A DNA stretch of 12,118 bases from Desulfobacteraceae bacterium. GTDB taxonomy: Bacteria > Desulfobacterota > Desulfobacteria > Desulfobacterales > UBA11574. Each line of letters opens with the position of its first letter. Position 1 is the stretch's first letter. The notes beneath the pieces were generated by a model. The model did no database searches. It saw nothing but the letters and a program-made list of their open reading frames with translations, and was not told where the DNA came from. Shown piece by piece: positions 1 through 11,927 of this stretch. Position numbers and translations under genes: made by a program. The stretch is from positions 1-12,118 of the forward strand of contig JAOUGB010000025.1 in assembly GCA_029857875.1 (NCBI GenBank), in the 5' to 3' direction.

Positions 1-1982
1 ACATTGTACGTTGAACCTGGAATATTCTTGATTCGGAACCGGACTTTTTTTCGTTCAGGTACGACGCGGTGAGCCTTTGTATTTTTTCGCGAACCCGGCA
101 ACTCAAGATTTGGTTGACCGGATCGGTTGAGGCAAACGTTCAGCATGGTACCATCGAGTGTCTTTTGATAAATCGGATCTTTGGGATCACTATGGCACAC
201 AAGACATTGGTTCACTGCCAGAACCCTTTTAATTTCCGAACTGTTTAGAGGCCGTGAATTTTCCCGGGTAATGGCGGAAAAGGCGCTGACTTTTCCGTTT
301 TTCATCTTCAAAAACCCATCCAGAGGTTTTTCTTTTGATTTTTCACAGAGCATGGTGGCCTGAATGCTGTTCCTATTGACCACATGCTGTCCAAAACCCA
401 GAAAAGCAGGATTGGCGTGACATTCTGAACAACCGACGGCGGTTCTGCCGGTATTGTGAGAATAAAACGGCGCAAAACGCAACCGGTTATTCCCCTTAAA
501 CTTTGTCACGTATTCCTTTTTGATTGTCCGGCCATGTTCATCGACCATCGTCACAAAGGTCTGACACCCTGGTGTTACCGGAGAAATCCTGCCGCGCTGG
601 TTGACCGCCAGTGAAAAGGGATAAAGCGTTCGCCAGTCCTCGGTTTCACTGAATTTGCCCGGTGTTTCCTGATCTTTGATATAATCTTTCCCAAACTTTG
701 TTCGGTCATACCGGGTGTGACAACCAAAACACTGGGGCACGGCTCGGGAGTGACACGTATAACACTCCAGCCGCTCATGACCGGCGATGGTGTGTTCCGG
801 TGTTCCGGTAATAACAGGGCTTTGATGCAATTTCCCGGTGCGTTTGCCCAGCACATAGACATTGCCGGATTCGAAAAACACATTGGAATATTTACGCCCT
901 TTACCGGTGATGATCATTTTCATGCCGGGCTGCATTTTTATCGGGTAGCTTTTGGATTCCCGCATGGCTTCATCGTTTTCACGGGTAATTTCTTTAAAAT
1001 CAGGGCGCTTTTTTCCAGTGCCATGGCAGTCCTCACAGCTGATCTCTGTCTGATGGTACATATTTTCATAGGCATAGCCGTCACCCATAATATCTCTGGA
1101 CGTATGACAGTCAATACAGTCCATTCCCCAGGCAAAATGGATGTCCTCTGTAATGTAAGTGAGATTGCGAGCGCCGCTGATCATTCTGGGACCCGGCAGG
1201 CCGTTTCGGGTGGGCACCAAACAATTATTTCCGTCATGAAGTCCCTGGTAAGTGAGCGCCATACGGCCGCTGCGGTTGTGACAGCGTAAACAGACATCAT
1301 TTCCGGGCAGGGCTGCCAATTGATGGTTTGCCGAATAAGGTCGCTTGCCTTTGACGGTAAGATCATTCCCCTGATAGATGGCGGTATCGTTATATGGAAA
1401 ATGGCATGCTGCACAGCCGGAGCCGTGGCTGGCGGCATACTTTTGATTGTCCTCTTGACCTACGTGGCACCGGGAACAAAATTTGCGATACAGTTCTCCT
1501 GAAAGATGATTCAGTTGGTCAACATCTTTCAGTTCAAGTGGACTGCCATTTTTGGAAAAGACCTTTTCCGGGCGTGTGCTGTAAAGCTTGCCGTCTTCTC
1601 CCTCCCAGGTTTTTTGGATGTTCTTGATCATGCCGGTATTGGTGAGCATGATATTGGCCCGGACCCGTTGTAATTGATAGGGATGACATTTTCCGCAGGT
1701 TTGCTCCCAAAATTTTGGATTTGAAGGATTTTTAGGGCCGTGCATGGTTCGGTGAGAAGCTTCTTTATCTTCTGATTTTGAATCGCCGCCGTGACAGTCG
1801 ACGCAAATCTGATGAGTGGCAGAGGCGAGTTCCAGGTCTTGATGGCATGAAGCGCAGGTGGATTTGCTATGAGAAGCATTGGTACATCCCAGTAAAAGAA
1901 ATACAGCAGTATTAACAAAAACAATTATGAATGGTCGAAACACAAAAAATCTGAAAGCTGGCAAAAGAATTAAAACCCCCAT
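1..1982 (-). CDS. Multiheme (at least 12-heme) lipoprotein cytochrome c, C-terminus cut by window edge
   Basis: An open frame of about 660 codons runs off the left edge without a stop. It encodes an exported electron-transfer cytochrome. Counting from the ATG at 1982, a hydrophobic N-terminus ends in a lipobox (L-L-G-C, Cys33), so the mature protein should be lipid-anchored in the cell envelope. Twelve CxxCH heme motifs start near residues 43, 60, 96, 169, 190, 231, 289, 316, 407, 418, 518 and 593 (CASCH, CVDCH, CGKCH, CSRCH, CAACH, CLRCH, CIDCH, CEDCH, CYTCH, CFGCH, CSECH, CLVCH). The start is uncertain: ATG 1988, ATG 1982 and GTG 1943 are in frame and none has a clear Shine-Dalgarno; GTG 1943 would give the most ordinary lipoprotein signal. 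It lies 118 bases behind the 193-residue membrane protein gene and may share its transcript. Residues 190-320 resemble part of the multiheme cytochrome at 7737-9680. Substrate or partner is unknown; an outer-membrane or periplasmic electron conduit is plausible. Confidence 0.9.
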   Translation of the reverse strand, partial: MGVLILLPAFRFFVFRPFIIVFVNTAVFLLLGCTNASHSKSTCASCHQDLELASATHQICVDCHGGDSKSEDKEASHRTMHGPKNPSNPKFWEQTCGKCHPYQLQRVRANIMLTNTGMIKNIQKTWEGEDGKLYSTRPEKVFSKNGSPLELKDVDQLNHLSGELYRKFCSRCHVGQEDNQKYAASHGSGCAACHFPYNDTAIYQGNDLTVKGKRPYSANHQLAALPGNDVCLRCHNRSGRMALTYQGLHDGNNCLVPTRNGLPGPRMISGARNLTYITEDIHFAWGMDCIDCHTSRDIMGDGYAYENMYHQTEISCEDCHGTGKKRPDFKEITRENDEAMRESKSYPIKMQPGMKMIITGKGRKYSNVFFESGNVYVLGKRTGKLHQSPVITGTPEHTIAGHERLECYTCHSRAVPQCFGCHTRYDRTKFGKDYIKDQETPGKFSETEDWRTLYPFSLAVNQRGRISPVTPGCQTFVTMVDEHGRTIKKEYVTKFKGNNRLRFAPFYSHNTGRTAVGCSECHANPAFLGFGQHVVNRNSIQATMLCEKSKEKPLDGFLKMKNGKVSAFSAITRENSRPLNSSEIKRVLAVNQCLVCHSDPKDPIYQKTLDGTMLNVCLNRSGQPNLELPGSRKNTKAHRVVPERKKVRFRIKNIPGSTYN

Positions 1983-2100
1983 AATCATCAAAAAAAAAAT
2001 TACAGTAGAGAAAAAATTAATCCACCGCCAAAACCACCTTGGTCAGAAGAAATGAAGTGGAAGAAAATGATCGATAGTAGTAAAACAAGAGGCACATTTA

Positions 2101-6232: not shown

Positions 6233-6604
6233 CTAGGGATTCAGCACCGCGATGCAGGTAAATAGCACAAACGAAAGCAGCAAGAGTATACCGGCAATCA
6301 ATACCTTTAGTCTGCCCCACTTGCCTTTGTCGATAAAAGGAACCAAAATGAGCACCAAAACAGCCGTCAGCGGTATAAACGTTGTACCGATTATGATTTG
6401 CTTTCCGGGAAAGTAACGAATGAGTTGATACAGCCAGAGAAAATACCACTCCGGCTTAGGGCTAAACGGTGTGGAAAAATCAATTTGGCGGCCGATGGCC
6501 GGCGGGTATAGCAGGGCGAGGGTAACGATCAACTCGATAATTAAAAAGATCACCAAAAGGATTTCAATGAGGTAATCGGGGTAAAAGTCCTTTTGTCGAT
6601 TCAC
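6233..6604 (-). CDS. Cytochrome b6f subunit IV-like protein (cytochrome b C-terminal half)
   Basis: A 123-residue membrane protein with three helices (about 12-33, 74-93 and 98-118). It supplies the C-terminal half of a split cytochrome b. The quinol-oxidation-site signature PEWY is at residues 51-54 in the context SPKPEWYFLWLYQLIRYFP, very like subunit IV of the b6f complex (PEWYFFPVFQILR in plants). PEWY/PEWF loops line the Qo site, and the Glu takes part in proton release from quinol. The start is GTG 6604: AAAGGAGG sits eight bases upstream, inside the last codons of the cytochrome b gene, and the two genes are one base apart, indicating translational coupling. Last gene of the four-gene operon. 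Subunit IV of b6f is about 160 residues, so this one is somewhat shorter, mainly at the N-terminus. Confidence 0.93.
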   Translation of the reverse strand: MNRQKDFYPDYLIEILLVIFLIIELIVTLALLYPPAIGRQIDFSTPFSPKPEWYFLWLYQLIRYFPGKQIIIGTTFIPLTAVLVLILVPFIDKGKWGRLKVLIAGILLLLSFVLFTCIAVLNP

Positions 6605-6605
6605 G

Positions 6606-7253
6606 CTACAAACCTCCTTTTACACCCTGGTGCTTTACCAGATGGAAATGTGCCCACAATAATAGACACATGAATAGCGGGATATAGAGAACATGGATGG
6701 CATAAAATCGAATCAGGGTAGCATTGGTGATGTCTTCGCCGCCTCGCAGGAAATAGCAAAGATAAGGACCCAGTAACGGCACGGTTCGAGCCATGGAGGT
6801 GCCGACTTCAGTGGCCCAGTACGCCTTCTGATCCCAGGGTAACAAATATCCGGTGAAACCAGAGGCGAATGCCAGAATCAGGGTTAACGATCCTGCGATC
6901 CAGTTGAGCTCGCGGGGATGACGATAGGCTTTATAAACAAAGACTCTGATGGTATGAAGAACAATCGCCACAATAAATAAATTGGCTGACCATTTGTGAA
7001 ATGACCGGATAAACCAGCCGAAGCGCACCTCATTATTGATGCGTAAAATACTGGCAAATGCTTCGTTCTCCGAAGGCACATAATAAATGGCAAGCATCAG
7101 GCCACTGATAAAAAGCATGATAAAAAGCGCAAATGCAATCCCACCCAAACAAAAGAAATAATTGACCCCTTCCGGAATGCGGCGATACAGGAACCTGCGG
7201 TGCGGTTTTTTTATTCCGAAATTACGATCGAGCCACTCAAAGAAATTTCCCAT
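6606..7253 (-). CDS. Cytochrome b6-like protein (cytochrome b N-terminal half) with predicted heme ci cysteine
   Basis: A 215-residue, four-helix cytochrome b, the same size as plant b6. It carries electrons across the membrane in a Rieske/b quinol oxidoreductase. Heme ligands are His86 and His100 (13 residues between) on one helix and His187 and His202 (14 between) on another; the 14-residue spacing is the b6 type rather than the mitochondrial bc1 type. Cys35 in FFCLGGIAF matches the b6 cysteine that binds the extra heme ci covalently. Other matches to b6 are FGWFIRSFHKWSA, HPRELNW and SGFTGYLLPWDQKAYWA, the last being the Qo-site region. The start ATG 7253 has GAGGAAG upstream; the gene begins ten bases after the Rieske stop. 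Position of the ligands is read directly; presence of heme ci is inference from the conserved cysteine. Confidence 0.96.
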   Translation of the reverse strand: MGNFFEWLDRNFGIKKPHRRFLYRRIPEGVNYFFCLGGIAFALFIMLFISGLMLAIYYVPSENEAFASILRINNEVRFGWFIRSFHKWSANLFIVAIVLHTIRVFVYKAYRHPRELNWIAGSLTLILAFASGFTGYLLPWDQKAYWATEVGTSMARTVPLLGPYLCYFLRGGEDITNATLIRFYAIHVLYIPLFMCLLLWAHFHLVKHQGVKGGL

Positions 7254-7263
7254 ATCATCTTCC

Positions 7264-7731
7264 TCATACCCTTAAACCGATATGTACCTTCTGGTGTTCA
7301 ATTTTCAGAGGCATGCGGTTCATAGGAGCCGGAGGCGGCCCCGCGACCACATTCCCGTTGGTATCGTACTGTCCGCCGTGACAGGGACATAGAAATTTGT
7401 TTTCGGGTCGGTACCAGTTTATCAGGCAGCCGAGATGCGTGCAAATCGCTGATAGTGCGAACAATTCTTTACCCGTGTTTACGATGAAAATCTTTTTTGT
7501 GCCGGCTTTGCCATGCAGCGGATAATCGATATAATATTGCCTAACCCCTTGAACCGGCAATTCCTCCTCCTCACAGGCATAGACATATACCGTTTTCTTT
7601 TTCCGTAATTGCTTTGGGAATGCAAATAGCAAATACAAGCCCATCATTATAAATAAACCGATAAATGAAAATAGCTTGCAGACCTTCTTTAAAAAAGATC
7701 TTCTATCTAATTTTGATGTATTTTGTAACAT
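7264..7731 (-). CDS. Rieske [2Fe-2S] protein of a quinol:cytochrome c oxidoreductase
   Basis: A 155-residue protein that accepts the first electron from quinol at the Qo site. The N-terminus has a twin-arginine motif (DRRSFLKK, residues 9-16) followed by one membrane helix (about 20-38), so it is Tat-exported and stays anchored. The cluster-binding boxes are CTHLGC (97-102) and CPCHGGQYD (115-123). Cys97, His99, Cys115 and His118 are ligands, and Cys102 and Cys117 the usual disulfide. Gly120 stands where high-potential Rieske proteins have Ser, while Tyr122 is kept; loss of that Ser hydrogen bond lowers the potential in studied Rieske proteins, in keeping with menaquinol. The ATG is five bases after the stop of the multiheme cytochrome gene; no strong ribosome binding site is visible, so coupled translation is likely. 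Confidence 0.96.
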
Positions 7732-7736
7732 TTAAT

Positions 7737-9680
7737 TCAGTTAGAGAAGTCATTCAAACGCGATACAACCTTTTCATCCTCAATATTGTGAAGCGCCGCC
7801 CCCTTGACATTTTGATAACGGCGCAGTGTTTTTGGATCCAGGAGCTTGGCATTTTGGTCGAGTTTTTCCAGTTTGACAGTAAAGGTTTGGTATTTCTCCA
7901 GATAAAGGCGGTATTTGGTTTCATCGGTCTTGATACTAAAATCTCTTTTAATTCTCCATTTATCTTTAAAAAATAACCAGGAAGCAAAATCACTCAGGTT
8001 ATAATCCTCAAAAGGAAGTATCGGGGAGGTGTTGTGCATATTACGTATGGAGAGGGTGCTTTGGTCTGCTACGACTTCATATGTACCGGTGAAGGTCTCT
8101 TCCGTTCCTTGTCCGTCAAGAAACTCCCAGTTTGACACCGAAATCTGTTGTTCCTGGTGACAGCTCTCACAGGACCGTCCCCTGCCAAAGGGGTGGGCGG
8201 CCTGTTGTATTTCCAGCCATAGCAGGTGGTTGTTGTTCTCAGCCAATCCGTCAAAGGTGCCGACAATGTAATAGGCGTCTTTTGTTTCTCCGGCCGGCCA
8301 CCTGTAATGCACGGTTGAAGACCGTGGAACTTTTTGTTTAATGTTGCCGACTGCTTGGGGCATTATTTTAACCGGCATCCACTTCCCCTGTTGGTCTTTC
8401 ATCAGGATTGGCGGCTTTTGGATTCCGTAATAGAGTGCATATTTGTAAAAGGGGTTGTGGGTGTCGGCAAAAAATCCAGGGCCCCAGATGGTGATCTGAT
8501 ACCCTCCGAGCGCATTGACATGGCAGGCGGAACAGCTAAGATTTTTATGGATACTCTTGGCGTGCGCCTCCTCGATGGCGATGTGGCAATCCTGGCAATC
8601 GGCCTTTCTTCGCATATCTCCCATGCCTTTTGGGCCGGTAGGATGGCAGTCTATACAGTGGATACCATTTTTATAATGCACATCGGGCTCCATTCCCGAA
8701 GGAATTGCGTAATCTCCGCCGACATACGTCTCACCTCTCCGGCTCTCCATGGACCCAGAATGACACATGCTACTGCGGCCGAATCCACTGCAACTTTCCG
8801 ATTTTGGTACTTTGGCAAATTGGTGAGGCCGTCCCTTTTGGGGCGTGTAATGACAGTCTAAGCAGCCGGCATGACAGGTATTGCAGATCCTTTGTTTGTC
8901 CTCCGCCTGCTTTCGGGTAAACGGAAAATTAAGGTTCTGACGAATTTTTTCAGTATTTAAATATTCAAAACCGGAAGCTTTCAGAATTTCATGCGGGGGA
9001 AGGTCGGCAAACGAAGGACCGCAGTTGTGCGGGCCGTAAGGATCCATCCATGTCTTCATTGTGCGTTGACGGAAATTGATGGCCATCAGGGTGGTATTGA
9101 ATTGCTTTAATTGCTCTGGATGACAACCGGATTTGGCACAGGTTTTTTGCGCCAGTTCCGGATCAAAATTGTAGGTTTCCAGATTCCGGTCATGCCAGAG
9201 GATGGTCCGAACTTCATATGGATATCGAAATCCTCCATCGATCGCATTTTTCGGAATCAATTCGAACAATCTGTTTGCACCGGTGGGTTGTAAGGGGTAT
9301 GGATAGAAAACCTTTCTTTGTTTAAGCTCGGCCTCATCACCGACGATCAGCATTTTCAGCATGCCTTTATGGGCCTTGTCTTTATCCGTTGCGCGGCCTT
9401 TACCCAGATGGCAATCCCTGCATTCGGCAGTGGTGTGTTTGCTCTGTTCGGATACCATTTCCGGAGTAATGTAAAATTCAGGGTGGCCGAGTTCCGTCAG
9501 TTTTTTTCGGTCCGAGTGGCATCGAACGCATTCGGCTGAACTCTGGTTCCAGGCATAATAACCGGAATACGAAATAATAACAGCAGCCTGCAAAACAAGA
9601 ATAAGGATGACCTTTTTGTTCAAGTAGGAGCTTATGGTGCCGGGTTTTTTCAGTAACATTTTGGCAAGCAAGCCTATCAA
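7737..9680 (-). CDS. Membrane-anchored multiheme cytochrome c of the Rieske/cytochrome b complex
   Basis: A 647-residue cytochrome, first gene of the operon, standing where a cytochrome c1 or f gene would be expected. One N-terminal helix (about residues 22-44) is uncleaved in appearance and the rest should be periplasmic. Eight CxxCH motifs start at residues 51, 87, 266, 273, 342, 362, 383 and 504. Two expanded candidates are CAKSGCH at 181 (C-x4-CH) and C297-x8-C306-H307, making up to ten hemes. The pair at 266 and 273 is almost continuous (CNTCH, AG, CLDCH). The C-terminal 135 residues after the last heme motif lack Cys. TTG 9680 is the most upstream start, ATG 9659 the alternative; neither has a good Shine-Dalgarno. 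Probable role: takes electrons from the Rieske protein and passes them to periplasmic or outer cytochromes, or acts in reverse. Its substrate, if it is itself a reductase, cannot be told. Confidence 0.92.
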   Translation of the reverse strand: MIGLLAKMLLKKPGTISSYLNKKVILILVLQAAVIISYSGYYAWNQSSAECVRCHSDRKKLTELGHPEFYITPEMVSEQSKHTTAECRDCHLGKGRATDKDKAHKGMLKMLIVGDEAELKQRKVFYPYPLQPTGANRLFELIPKNAIDGGFRYPYEVRTILWHDRNLETYNFDPELAQKTCAKSGCHPEQLKQFNTTLMAINFRQRTMKTWMDPYGPHNCGPSFADLPPHEILKASGFEYLNTEKIRQNLNFPFTRKQAEDKQRICNTCHAGCLDCHYTPQKGRPHQFAKVPKSESCSGFGRSSMCHSGSMESRRGETYVGGDYAIPSGMEPDVHYKNGIHCIDCHPTGPKGMGDMRRKADCQDCHIAIEEAHAKSIHKNLSCSACHVNALGGYQITIWGPGFFADTHNPFYKYALYYGIQKPPILMKDQQGKWMPVKIMPQAVGNIKQKVPRSSTVHYRWPAGETKDAYYIVGTFDGLAENNNHLLWLEIQQAAHPFGRGRSCESCHQEQQISVSNWEFLDGQGTEETFTGTYEVVADQSTLSIRNMHNTSPILPFEDYNLSDFASWLFFKDKWRIKRDFSIKTDETKYRLYLEKYQTFTVKLEKLDQNAKLLDPKTLRRYQNVKGAALHNIEDEKVVSRLNDFSN

Positions 9681-10360: not shown

Positions 10361-10438
10361 ATTGAAAGAAACGAGTTTACGGAGTCAGATGCGGATTTTA
10401 CACCGCTGTGGGAGTATTTTCCATGGGCGGTTTCATGA
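10361..10438 (+). other. Probable N-terminal part of the small membrane protein, in a shifted frame
   Basis: AAAGGAGG at 10346-10353, an ideal ribosome binding site, precedes a frame that begins ATT GAA AGA at 10361. It reads ERNEFTESDADFTPLWEYFP followed by WAVS and then TGA (10436-10438). The stop overlaps the ATG at 10435 of the next frame. Restoring one T in the TTT at 10431-10433 would give WAVFMMMIGLALGS, a smooth run from an amphipathic segment into a membrane helix. Thus this is probably the missing start of the following gene rather than a separate peptide. No ATG, GTG or TTG lies at this position in this frame; ATT is a rare start codon. Confidence 0.45.
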
Positions 10439-10758
10439 TGATGATCGGTCTTGCACTCGGTTCAATTCTGGGCGTCAAATACCTGATATGGGAAATGCTG
10501 AACTGGCCGGTTAAAATACCCAGTCAACAACCGTTGGAATGTAAAAAAACTCCGCTGATCGATTGGTGCAAAGTGTATCCCTACTTCAAAAATGCCGTAA
10601 AAACCACTGCACTAGGGCCGTTCCTGGGTAAGGGTGTCTATGTAGTTAATGTGCTGACCTGGACCCGGACTCCGGTTTTTTATATCTCATTTTTTCTTGT
10701 ATGGTACTTATTGGCAGTATATAATGAAAAAACTGAAAAATTCGTTATCACATTCTAA
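10423..10758 (+). CDS. Small membrane protein of unknown family heading the sulfur-relay operon
   Basis: From ATG 10423 the frame encodes 111 residues; ATG 10435 overlaps the stop of the upstream short frame, and GTG 10408 is also in frame. None of these starts has its own ribosome binding site, which supports a frame disruption with the true beginning at about 10361. Two membrane helices are visible, one at the N-terminus (FMMMIGLALGSILGVKYLIW) and one near the C-terminus (VFYISFFLVWYLLAVY). The loop between holds two Cys (LECKKTPLIDWC). I do not recognise the family. Position directly before a TusA gene recalls the YedE-type permease genes that often precede tusA, but it lacks the glycine and cysteine signatures of YedE and is much shorter. 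It could deliver or receive sulfur at the membrane, or anchor the relay proteins; this is inference. Confidence 0.65.
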   Translation: MGGFMMMIGLALGSILGVKYLIWEMLNWPVKIPSQQPLECKKTPLIDWCKVYPYFKNAVKTTALGPFLGKGVYVVNVLTWTRTPVFYISFFLVWYLLAVYNEKTEKFVITF

Positions 10759-10770
10759 AGGAGCGAAAAT

Positions 10771-11019
10771 ATGGATGATTTAGAAAATATTAAGGCGGAC
10801 ATTGTACTGGATACTCGTGGATTGAGTTGCCCCATGCCGATTCTGAAGCTTAAAAAAGAGCTGAAAACCACGGAACCAGGTAAAATTGTTGAAGTCTGGA
10901 GCACGGATCCCGGCTCAAAAAAGGACATGCCGGATTTTGCCAAGAAGCAAGGCAATGAGTTTCTGGGCTACGTTGATGAGGCGGGGTATACGAGATACTT
11001 GATCAAAAAAGGAGGATAA
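10771..11019 (+). CDS. tusA: TusA-family sulfur carrier protein
   Basis: An 82-residue cytoplasmic protein of the TusA/SirA/YedF family. The catalytic signature is LDTRGLSCPMPILKLKK, with Cys20 in the CPMP box; this Cys carries sulfane sulfur as a persulfide. A beta-alpha-beta-alpha-beta-beta pattern fits the length. The acidic WSTDPGSKKDMPDFAKKQG loop in the middle matches family members. AAAGGAG lies seven bases before ATG 10771, overlapping the stop of the preceding gene. With DsrE-like and DsrH-like genes directly behind it, the protein should trade persulfide within a relay linked to sulfur respiration or disproportionation and not, or not only, to tRNA thiolation. Assignment to TusA proper rather than a YedF-like paralogue rests on context. 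Confidence 0.9.
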   Translation: MDDLENIKADIVLDTRGLSCPMPILKLKKELKTTEPGKIVEVWSTDPGSKKDMPDFAKKQGNEFLGYVDEAGYTRYLIKKGG

Positions 11020-11020
11020 C

Positions 11021-11317
11021 TTGGGCAAAGTTGATAAAGTCGCGGTACTTATCAAAGATGTTGATCAGCAGTATGAAGGGTTGCGAACCAGCCTTGGTTT
11101 GCTACTTGAAGCGGCTTCGGTTCAAATGTATGTCCTGAATCATGAAATTAAAAATATGGACGAGGCCTACCGGGATAACATGGCGTTTATTGATGAGATG
11201 GAAGGGGAACGTTACTCCAACCATCCGGCTAAAGTCGAAAAATACGGTTTCCAACCTGTAACCACTGAGGAATTGTTGGTCAAGCTCAAAGAGGTTGACC
11301 TTATTATTCCCTTTTAG
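11021..11317 (+). CDS. DsrE/DsrF-like protein lacking cysteine
   Basis: A 98-residue soluble protein. The beginning KVAVLIKDVDQQYEGLRTSLGLLLEA, the QMYVLN strand that follows and the C-terminal EVDLIIPF strand fit the DsrE/F fold, in which a sulfurtransferase subunit uses a conserved Cys near residue 78. Here there is no Cys at all, so it cannot form a persulfide itself; it may be a structural subunit, as DsrF is in the DsrEFH hexamer. The start is TTG 11021, preceded by GGAGG at five-base spacing, with one base between it and the tusA stop. The next gene is DsrH-like. Family call is by fold pattern and context. Confidence 0.72.
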   Translation: MGKVDKVAVLIKDVDQQYEGLRTSLGLLLEAASVQMYVLNHEIKNMDEAYRDNMAFIDEMEGERYSNHPAKVEKYGFQPVTTEELLVKLKEVDLIIPF

Positions 11318-11327
11318 AGGGCAATTA

Positions 11328-11528
11328 ATGATGAAAACGCTAAATATTGTTCGGTCAGCGCCAGATGATTTGGAAAAGAAGTTTATAGAAACTTTTTCCG
11401 AGAGCGAAGGAGACAAAGTAATCACCCTGTATGAAGGGGATGTGCCTGGCGTCGGTTTCAAGGACTTCGCTATGCAGGCAAGAAATGCGGAGATGATTAA
11501 AGAATGTGACCGCTATCTGGTTTTTTGA
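11328..11528 (+). CDS. Small DsrH/TusB-like protein
   Basis: A 66-residue protein starting at ATG 11328 (or ATG 11331), with AGAGG seven bases upstream, ten bases after the stop of the DsrE-like gene. The N-terminal KTLNIVRSAPDD, the strand KVITLYEGDV and the terminal CDRYLVF resemble the layout of small DsrH/TusB-type subunits. A single Cys lies near the C-terminus (residue about 61), roughly where DsrH/TusB carry their sulfur-linked Cys. The match is weak and the protein is shorter than TusB (about 95 residues). Together with its neighbours it would complete a three-part relay of TusA, DsrE-like and DsrH-like proteins. Confidence 0.6.
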   Translation: MMKTLNIVRSAPDDLEKKFIETFSESEGDKVITLYEGDVPGVGFKDFAMQARNAEMIKECDRYLVF

Positions 11529-11591: not shown

Positions 11592-11927
11592 ATGAATAGA
11601 AAGTGGATCTTCATATTTTTTACGTTGGTATTATCATTGTGCCTTTTCGGTTTGGGCATTGCAGGAGATAAGAAAGCAAATAGCCGCAAGGGAAAACTCC
11701 TTTTCCGAAAGAATTGCCGTGTGTGTCATGATGGCGGCAAAGCACAAGAACTGGGTCCATACCGGAAAAAAATTAAAGAGTGGGAAAGTGTATTTGCAAA
11801 AGACAAATACAAGGAATACGCATGTAAAGCCGAATGGGAAAAGCTCTCCGAACAGGATCTGCTCGACATATTGGCGTACCTGCGAGCCGGTGCCGCGGAT
11901 TCAAAGGTTCCCCGTGGGTGCGGCTAA
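11592..11927 (+). CDS. Exported monoheme class I cytochrome c with probable His/Cys heme ligation
   Basis: A 111-residue periplasmic electron carrier. A signal peptide (1-24, ending GLGIA) precedes a class I cytochrome c core: KGKLLFRKNCRVCHDG with the heme motif at Cys42-Cys45-His46, LGPYRKKIKEW after it, and the C-terminal helix LSEQDLLDILAYLRAG at 85-100. Class I cytochromes place a Met ligand about eight residues before that helix; here no Met follows the heme motif, and Cys78 (EYACKAEWEKLS) is in that place. A second Cys is at 110. No other His is available after His46. ATG 11592 is preceded by AAAGGAG at good spacing. Last gene of the operon, 63 bases after the DsrH-like gene and followed by a terminator. 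His/Cys ligation is known in SoxA, TsdA and DsrJ, all of sulfur metabolism; function here is inferred. Confidence 0.88.
   Translation: MNRKWIFIFFTLVLSLCLFGLGIAGDKKANSRKGKLLFRKNCRVCHDGGKAQELGPYRKKIKEWESVFAKDKYKEYACKAEWEKLSEQDLLDILAYLRAGAADSKVPRGCG

Follow-up and report, generated by a model that had tools for sequence, protein, structure and literature searches.

In the passages covered of a 2026 report, YeeE/YedE, TusA and DsrE with two further small genes form the YTD cluster, the three small proteins are named DsrEFH type II, and the cable-bacterial DsrEFH type II complex has sulfur-transferase activity in vitro (PMC13293266). YTD and MOLY are given as the best current candidate markers of sulfur disproportionation (PMC12998232, passages covered); that YTD is essential for this process is disputed, a role in sulfur oxidation being favored (PMC13293266). 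As far as the published descriptions were covered (PMC13293266, PMC12998232, PMC9751629, PMC13047784), the YTD order is yeeE, tusA, a 98-aa gene, a dsrH-like gene and a dsrE-like gene, and relatives of the locus studied here have the same order (L031, L032, L034, L035, L052, L069, L080, L085). The published cluster, in the passages covered, has five or six genes and no cytochrome, whereas at loci of the family described here a cytochrome, or a related form lacking CxxCH, follows dsrE. The main texts of PMC13293266, PMC9751629 and PMC12998232 contain no instance of the word "cytochrome", and PMC13047784 mentions cytochromes c, in the passages covered, outside the YTD cluster. No description of the cytochrome family was found in the papers searched, as far as their main texts were covered. 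MOLY is the second point of comparison: a Tat-signal molybdopterin enzyme, an Fe-S subunit and a TorD/NarJ-type chaperone encoded near the cytochrome gene resemble MolyABC (PMC12998232, passages covered) and are putative counterparts of MolyABC OG1.

SoxA and TsdA, both His/Cys heme enzymes, share with the cytochrome a c-type heme and a sulfur setting, together with the cysteine axial ligand that we propose for it; Pfam and NCBIfam scans gave no match of the cytochrome to SoxA or TsdA families at E ≤ 0.001. NaxLS and the PsbV2-type proteins are small c-type cytochromes with cysteine ligation that are not known as sulfur-operon proteins; by description only, they resemble the present protein in small size and in the cysteine ligand proposed. 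His/Cys cytochromes are a known kind, of which the present protein would be a variant. In TsdA, as described in the passages covered, the heme-bound cysteine can bear thiosulfonate during catalysis (PMC4423706).

The cytochrome gene lies near the right end of the window, by which we mean the whole 12,118-nucleotide stretch analyzed (Desulfobacteraceae bacterium, contig JAOUGB010000025.1). Features are listed in Table 1.

Table 1. Features of the window, with the basis of each assignment
Feature	Position	Strand	Basis
Rieske protein, cytochrome b, cytochrome b C-terminal subunit	6233..7731	-	PF00355, PF00032
647-aa multiheme cytochrome with 8 CxxCH motifs, divergent from YTD genes	7737..9680	-	Conserved in L031-L033
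yeeE/yedE remnant, residues 145-211 + 350-409 of 410-aa homologue	10391..10758	+	Match to relatives
tusA, 82 aa, intact	10771..11019	+	PF01206, 2.3e-25
DSRF98 (name used here), 98-aa second gene, DsrEFH type II-like trio, intact	11021..11317	+	Conserved in relatives
In-frame fusion of dsrH front and dsrE back, internal deletion relative to relatives	11328..11528	+	Halves match two genes
Monoheme c-type cytochrome, probably exported, 111 aa	11592..11927	+	PF00034 match and family alignments
Predicted signal peptide, residues 1-24	11592..11663	+	Read by eye; model helix 2-24
Heme-attachment motif CRVCH, residues 42-46	11715..11729	+	160/240 family members with CxxCH, 80/240 without
Cys78 codon, proposed sixth heme ligand	11823..11825	+	231/240 members
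Cys110 codon, penultimate residue of cytochrome	11919..11921	+	234/240 members; missing in L055-L059, P0032

The cytochrome ORF starts with ATG, preceded by AAAGGAGAG, a ribosome-binding-like stretch. Judged by eye, the predicted signal peptide is of Sec type, with a basic start, then a hydrophobic run and small residues ahead of position 25. The protein matches PF00034 (Cytochrom_C) at 25.6 bits against a cut-off of 21.3, with the front half matched, and scores 26.6 against a cut-off of 27 for PF13442. A sequence-only reading of this DNA had described an intact class I core with CRVCH, no Met beyond the heme motif and a cysteine seven residues ahead of the final helix, and each of these features was borne out. 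CxxCH and a helical core, the marks of class I, are both present, the structure model predicting a helix at residues 87–99; the LSEQ stretch begins at residue 85, seven past Cys78; and neither Met nor His occurs after residue 47. The predicted mature protein has no Met at all and a single His, that of the heme. Absence of Met, the usual class I sixth ligand, is compatible with class I membership because class I cytochromes c with other sixth ligands exist. A database protein (P0001) is 99% identical to the window cytochrome and may come from the same population.

Homologues were gathered by a first search (62 homologues; matches in 27 of 60 related genomes), by scanning named genomes (32 loci, of which two are SAR324 and most carry the label Desulfobacterales, Desulfobacteraceae or Deltaproteobacteria) and by a profile search, from which the best 120 of 1983 matches were taken, 115 of these being new. 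From a 198-genome sample, 14 of 27 match rows were examined; the window's own row, a fragment at a contig edge and 11 weaker matches make up the remainder. Dropped before counting were P0055, which is truncated, P0059, a fusion lacking CxxCH, and L091, which contains a run of N; L060 and L061, on the same contigs as L032 and L031, were left out; L110, L112 and L115, whose contigs equal in length those of L080, L087 (Desulfocarbo indianensis) and L081 and carry the same cytochrome neighbors, were treated as repeats; and identical cores were counted once. Homologues, loci and the best 120 profile matches together gave an alignment of 240 distinct members. Such an alignment had been proposed as a check in the sequence-only reading, and it showed no lack of conservation: Cys78 is kept in 231 members of this set, and is therefore not a chance residue. 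CxxCH and Cys78 occur together in 151 members, 150 of which also have Cys110. A further nine have CxxCH without Cys78, and all nine carry a loop His in its place (Cys110 being present in four), as compared with any His in that loop in 6 of the 151. Neither His nor Met follows residue 47 in 33 rows of the first alignment, including the window protein and P0001, and in 32 of the 151 distinct heme-motif members with Cys78 in the larger set. The near-invariance of Cys110 is a feature beyond those that the sequence-only reading had pointed out.

Fold matches of the window cytochrome were mostly to cytochromes c6, c4 and DHC; none reached Foldseek E ≤ 0.001, and they were therefore used for the ligand register alone. 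The best structural matches were to the first domain of DHC (2fwt, 3u99), in which the sixth ligand lies 17 residues from the helix signature, as it does in the present family, where this spacing holds for Cys78 in 229 of 231 members. By fold matches and spacing, then, Cys78 sits in the DHC ligand register. DHC has two hemes and a His ligand, whereas the window cytochrome has one CxxCH and a Cys, and so falls outside the two-heme definition of DHC (PF09626). This profile gave no match to the window cytochrome at E ≤ 0.001; among ten proteins scanned it matched just L057 and L058, of the outgroup, below cut-off. A sequence search of solved structures for a counterpart of Cys78 gave alignments mainly around CxxCH, and DHC was absent among the matches listed. 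Near-invariance, the loop His in all nine heme-bearing exceptions and the DHC register together uphold the earlier placing of a cysteine at the sixth-ligand position. The window cytochrome is most likely periplasmic, and ligation of its heme by His46 and Cys78, taken alone, is quite likely.

The sequence-only reading did not anticipate that a branch of the family lacks CxxCH while keeping Cys78. The motif is absent in 80 of the 240 members, and all 80 retain Cys45, Cys78 and Cys110. Residue 42 is Tyr in 76 of them and Phe in four; residue 46 is Met in 25, His in 21, Asn in 20 and other residues in the rest. Sequencing error was considered and rejected as an explanation, the 80 sequences being distinct and those included in the locus tree grouping as a single, well-supported clade (19 rows, support 100/98). 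The branch has presumably lost its heme. In some protists heme is attached through a single cysteine, and the 21 members that keep His46 (as YxxCH or FxxCH) may still attach heme through a single thioether. Cys78 and Cys110 are invariant where CxxCH is missing, and therefore probably have roles besides or other than heme ligation; for Cys78, function probably extends beyond heme binding. We know of no counterpart to this three-cysteine branch.

Upstream of the cytochrome gene, the sequence-only reading had placed TusA/DsrE-type genes, which was correct in part. TusA is intact, and the 98-aa gene, which has no Pfam match and is named solely by its position in a YTD-type cluster, matches the second gene of a DsrEFH type II-like trio in relatives; the 66-aa "TusB" ORF is a dsrH/dsrE fusion. 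Measured against L031–L033, its front corresponds to dsrH residues 1–39 and its back to roughly the final 31 of dsrE, and a direct repeat of 13 nt, near-perfect, lies where the two meet. The ORF was rejected as a genuine TusB/DsrE-type gene, its halves matching two different genes of the relatives. Missing from the fusion is the DsrE part that bears the conserved Cys of the relatives, presumably the published active Cys67. At the middle yeeE junction, repeat likeness is weaker than at the dsrH/dsrE junction. With yeeE and dsrH/dsrE internally deleted, the window contig lacks the YTD synteny (yeeE, tusA, dsrE and two small genes) that L031 and L032, both near relatives, display. Elsewhere in the window's genome are a full yeeE (C207), a dsrF-H-E end piece (C130) and, where contig C285 ends, the terminal part of an OTR gene together with a b561-like ORF, each on a contig of its own. 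Completeness of this genome is 87% and contamination 6%; second copies may therefore reflect a paralogue or a strain mixture, and the deletions may be real or an assembly fault.

The sequence-only reading knew of no described system with this set, but YeeE/YedE-TusA-DsrE is the published YTD cluster, though without a cytochrome in the passages covered (PMC13293266). It had also suggested a direct part for the cytochrome in a TusA/DsrE persulfide relay, which is unlikely because, by eye, the cytochrome has a Sec-type signal and the TusA and DsrE-type carriers have none. In L033 (7201–8046), a full dsrE was not called between dsrH and the cytochrome gene, just its last part matching; dsrE may be damaged there too. 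On contig C130 (L098, 5363–7245), ORFs resembling thioredoxin and thioredoxin reductase (by eye) come after the dsrF-H-E end piece in place of the cytochrome, which suggests a thiol-redox partner for the C130 DsrEFH-II sulfur transferase. Elsewhere on the window contig, the Rieske/cytochrome b set, whose cytochrome b was named from sequence and from 94% identity to an L031 ORF, may supply or accept electrons through quinol. The contig carries this set, two multiheme cytochromes and two TauE/SafE-type transporters; the multiheme cytochrome at the left end (window 1–1988, minus strand) has 12 CxxCH in the translated frame and runs off the contig.

Gene neighborhoods were compared across 59 locus rows including the window: 34 with heme motif and Cys78, 19 without CxxCH and 6 without Cys78. 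MOLY-type, OTR, rhodanese and other labels came from small HMMs built from the loci studied, with Pfam checks on ten neighbor proteins, which confirmed a Tat-signal molybdopterin enzyme, PF11783 octaheme-type proteins, cytochrome b561 and rhodanese domains; one of the PF11783 proteins is fused to NrfD. Each of the 34 heme-motif loci with Cys78 has YTD (10), MolyA-type (25) or OTR (20) genes no farther than 6.5 kb away, the sets overlapping. Five of the six loci without Cys78 have none of these; the sixth, L090, has MolyA and OTR. Among the further His-type loci L121–L123, L121 has OTR and L122 has both MolyA and OTR, so His-type members occur in such operons too. In 23 of 25 MolyA loci the labelled gene immediately preceding molyA is the cytochrome gene; in L118 and L119 it lies after molyA instead, and in 12 of 14 YTD loci it stands directly behind dsrE. 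A tie to tusA/dsrE in particular, as first proposed, is not supported for the family: DsrEFH-II genes lie within 6.5 kb in 14 of 53 Cys78 loci, as against MolyA or OTR in 46 of 53. Six of those 14 loci lack both MolyA and OTR, six have OTR without MolyA, and two have MolyA. The 98-aa gene was matched in 32 genomes of the 198-genome phylum sample, with the cytochrome adjacent in three including the window's own, and the cytochrome was rejected as a general YTD component.

Other genes recur at these loci. A PAS-domain, sigma-54-type regulator gene (by eye), usually divergent, lies within 6.5 kb in 36 of 53 Cys78 loci (e.g., L083, 5511–6872). L062 (4669–7941) and similar loci encode a 1090-aa fusion of an NrfD-type membrane domain with a PF11783 multiheme cytochrome, alongside TusA and an Fe-S protein of Tat type; the NrfD part has 12 ORF matches. 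Between dsrH and dsrE, the YTD loci L035 (7097–7576) and L069 (2245–2751) have an extra 159-aa-type gene, which may correspond to the third "CHP" in published accounts.

We favor, at a probability of about 0.6, the view that the protein is a periplasmic His46/Cys78 cytochrome acting with exported sulfur enzymes. It would be a monoheme c-type cytochrome with a fold like the first DHC domain, in which the ancestral distal His was exchanged for Cys78, most likely giving a His46/Cys78-ligated heme. It would work beside a MolyA-type molybdoenzyme, an octaheme OTR-type cytochrome and rhodaneses and, in the window's lineage, beside the YTD sulfur-import and sulfur-transfer cluster. It would probably relay electrons between the membrane and a sulfur enzyme, bear a sulfur group on its reactive, heme-bound Cys78 as TsdA does, or do both. 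Computed support comes from conservation, the His/Cys exchange, the ligand-register spacing, the neighborhoods and a clade that has lost CxxCH but not its cysteines; iron ligation, location, electron-transfer role and sulfur chemistry are what we infer from these. The presence of both Cys78 and Cys110 in 230 of 240 members, and the absence of both in five, would also fit a structural Cys78–Cys110 disulfide, and two free cysteines in a periplasmic protein tend toward oxidation; in that case the protein would be an ordinary electron carrier, its heme having five ligands or a weak sixth. This is rather improbable: Cys110 occurs alone in L090 and L121–L123 and Cys78 alone in P0032 only, the nine members without Cys78 have the loop His instead, and a third cysteine, Cys45, is retained in the CxxCH-less branch. 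More doubtful still is an ordinary cytochrome c or a relic of a decaying cluster. The internal deletions in yeeE and dsrH/dsrE, and the intact yeeE and dsrF-H-E end piece on other contigs, would suit a relic, but the cytochrome, tusA and 98-aa ORFs are open and 76–94% identical to their L031–L033 counterparts, P0001 is nearly identical (from what may be the same population), and conservation across the family is strong.

The His46/Cys78 cytochrome has also to be weighed against a protein in which the cysteines come first. Here Cys78 and Cys110, joined by Cys45 in the CxxCH-less branch, would carry periplasmic sulfane sulfur or thiosulfonate between rhodaneses and a sulfur enzyme, the heme being an ancestral feature that becomes dispensable once the octaheme protein does the electron chemistry. 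Retention of all three cysteines in the CxxCH-less members fits this, as does the presence of rhodanese genes no more than 6.5 kb away at 31 of the 53 Cys78 loci. So does the genomic context: CxxCH-less loci have OTR in 18 of 19 (the exception, L079, sits on a 3-kb contig), YTD in four and MolyA in none, against MolyA in 25 of 34 heme-motif loci (Fisher 6e-8, a value overstated as evidence since all CxxCH-less members there fall in one clade). Eleven further loci include eight with Cys78, which split likewise: six heme forms with MolyA (L111, L113, L116, L118–L120), several sharing genus or genome, and two CxxCH-less forms with OTR and no MolyA (L114, L117). Against it, CxxCH was lost once in the tree, so that the split consists of non-independent cases, and the 21 of 80 members with His46 could hold a single-thioether heme. 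We regard such a carrier as a tentative alternative, somewhat unlikely as things stand.

A cysteine-first, heme-optional carrier is the boldest reading that the data allow. In its fullest form, put forward more tentatively still, a DHC-like cytochrome would have taken a Cys for its heme His, become able to hold substrate sulfur and then, in one branch, become a heme-free three-cysteine periplasmic carrier, a counterpart of TusA that serves the MOLY, OTR and YTD systems in bacteria that disproportionate sulfur or reduce sulfate. To our knowledge, the extracytoplasmic sulfur-handling proteins of these bacteria are largely unknown. The present work places one small family beside three candidate gene sets, YTD, MOLY-type and OTR-type, and provides an evolutionary series from a His-type heme through a Cys-type heme to a form without CxxCH that keeps the same cysteines. 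This series makes it testable whether the cysteine is there for iron, for sulfur or for both.
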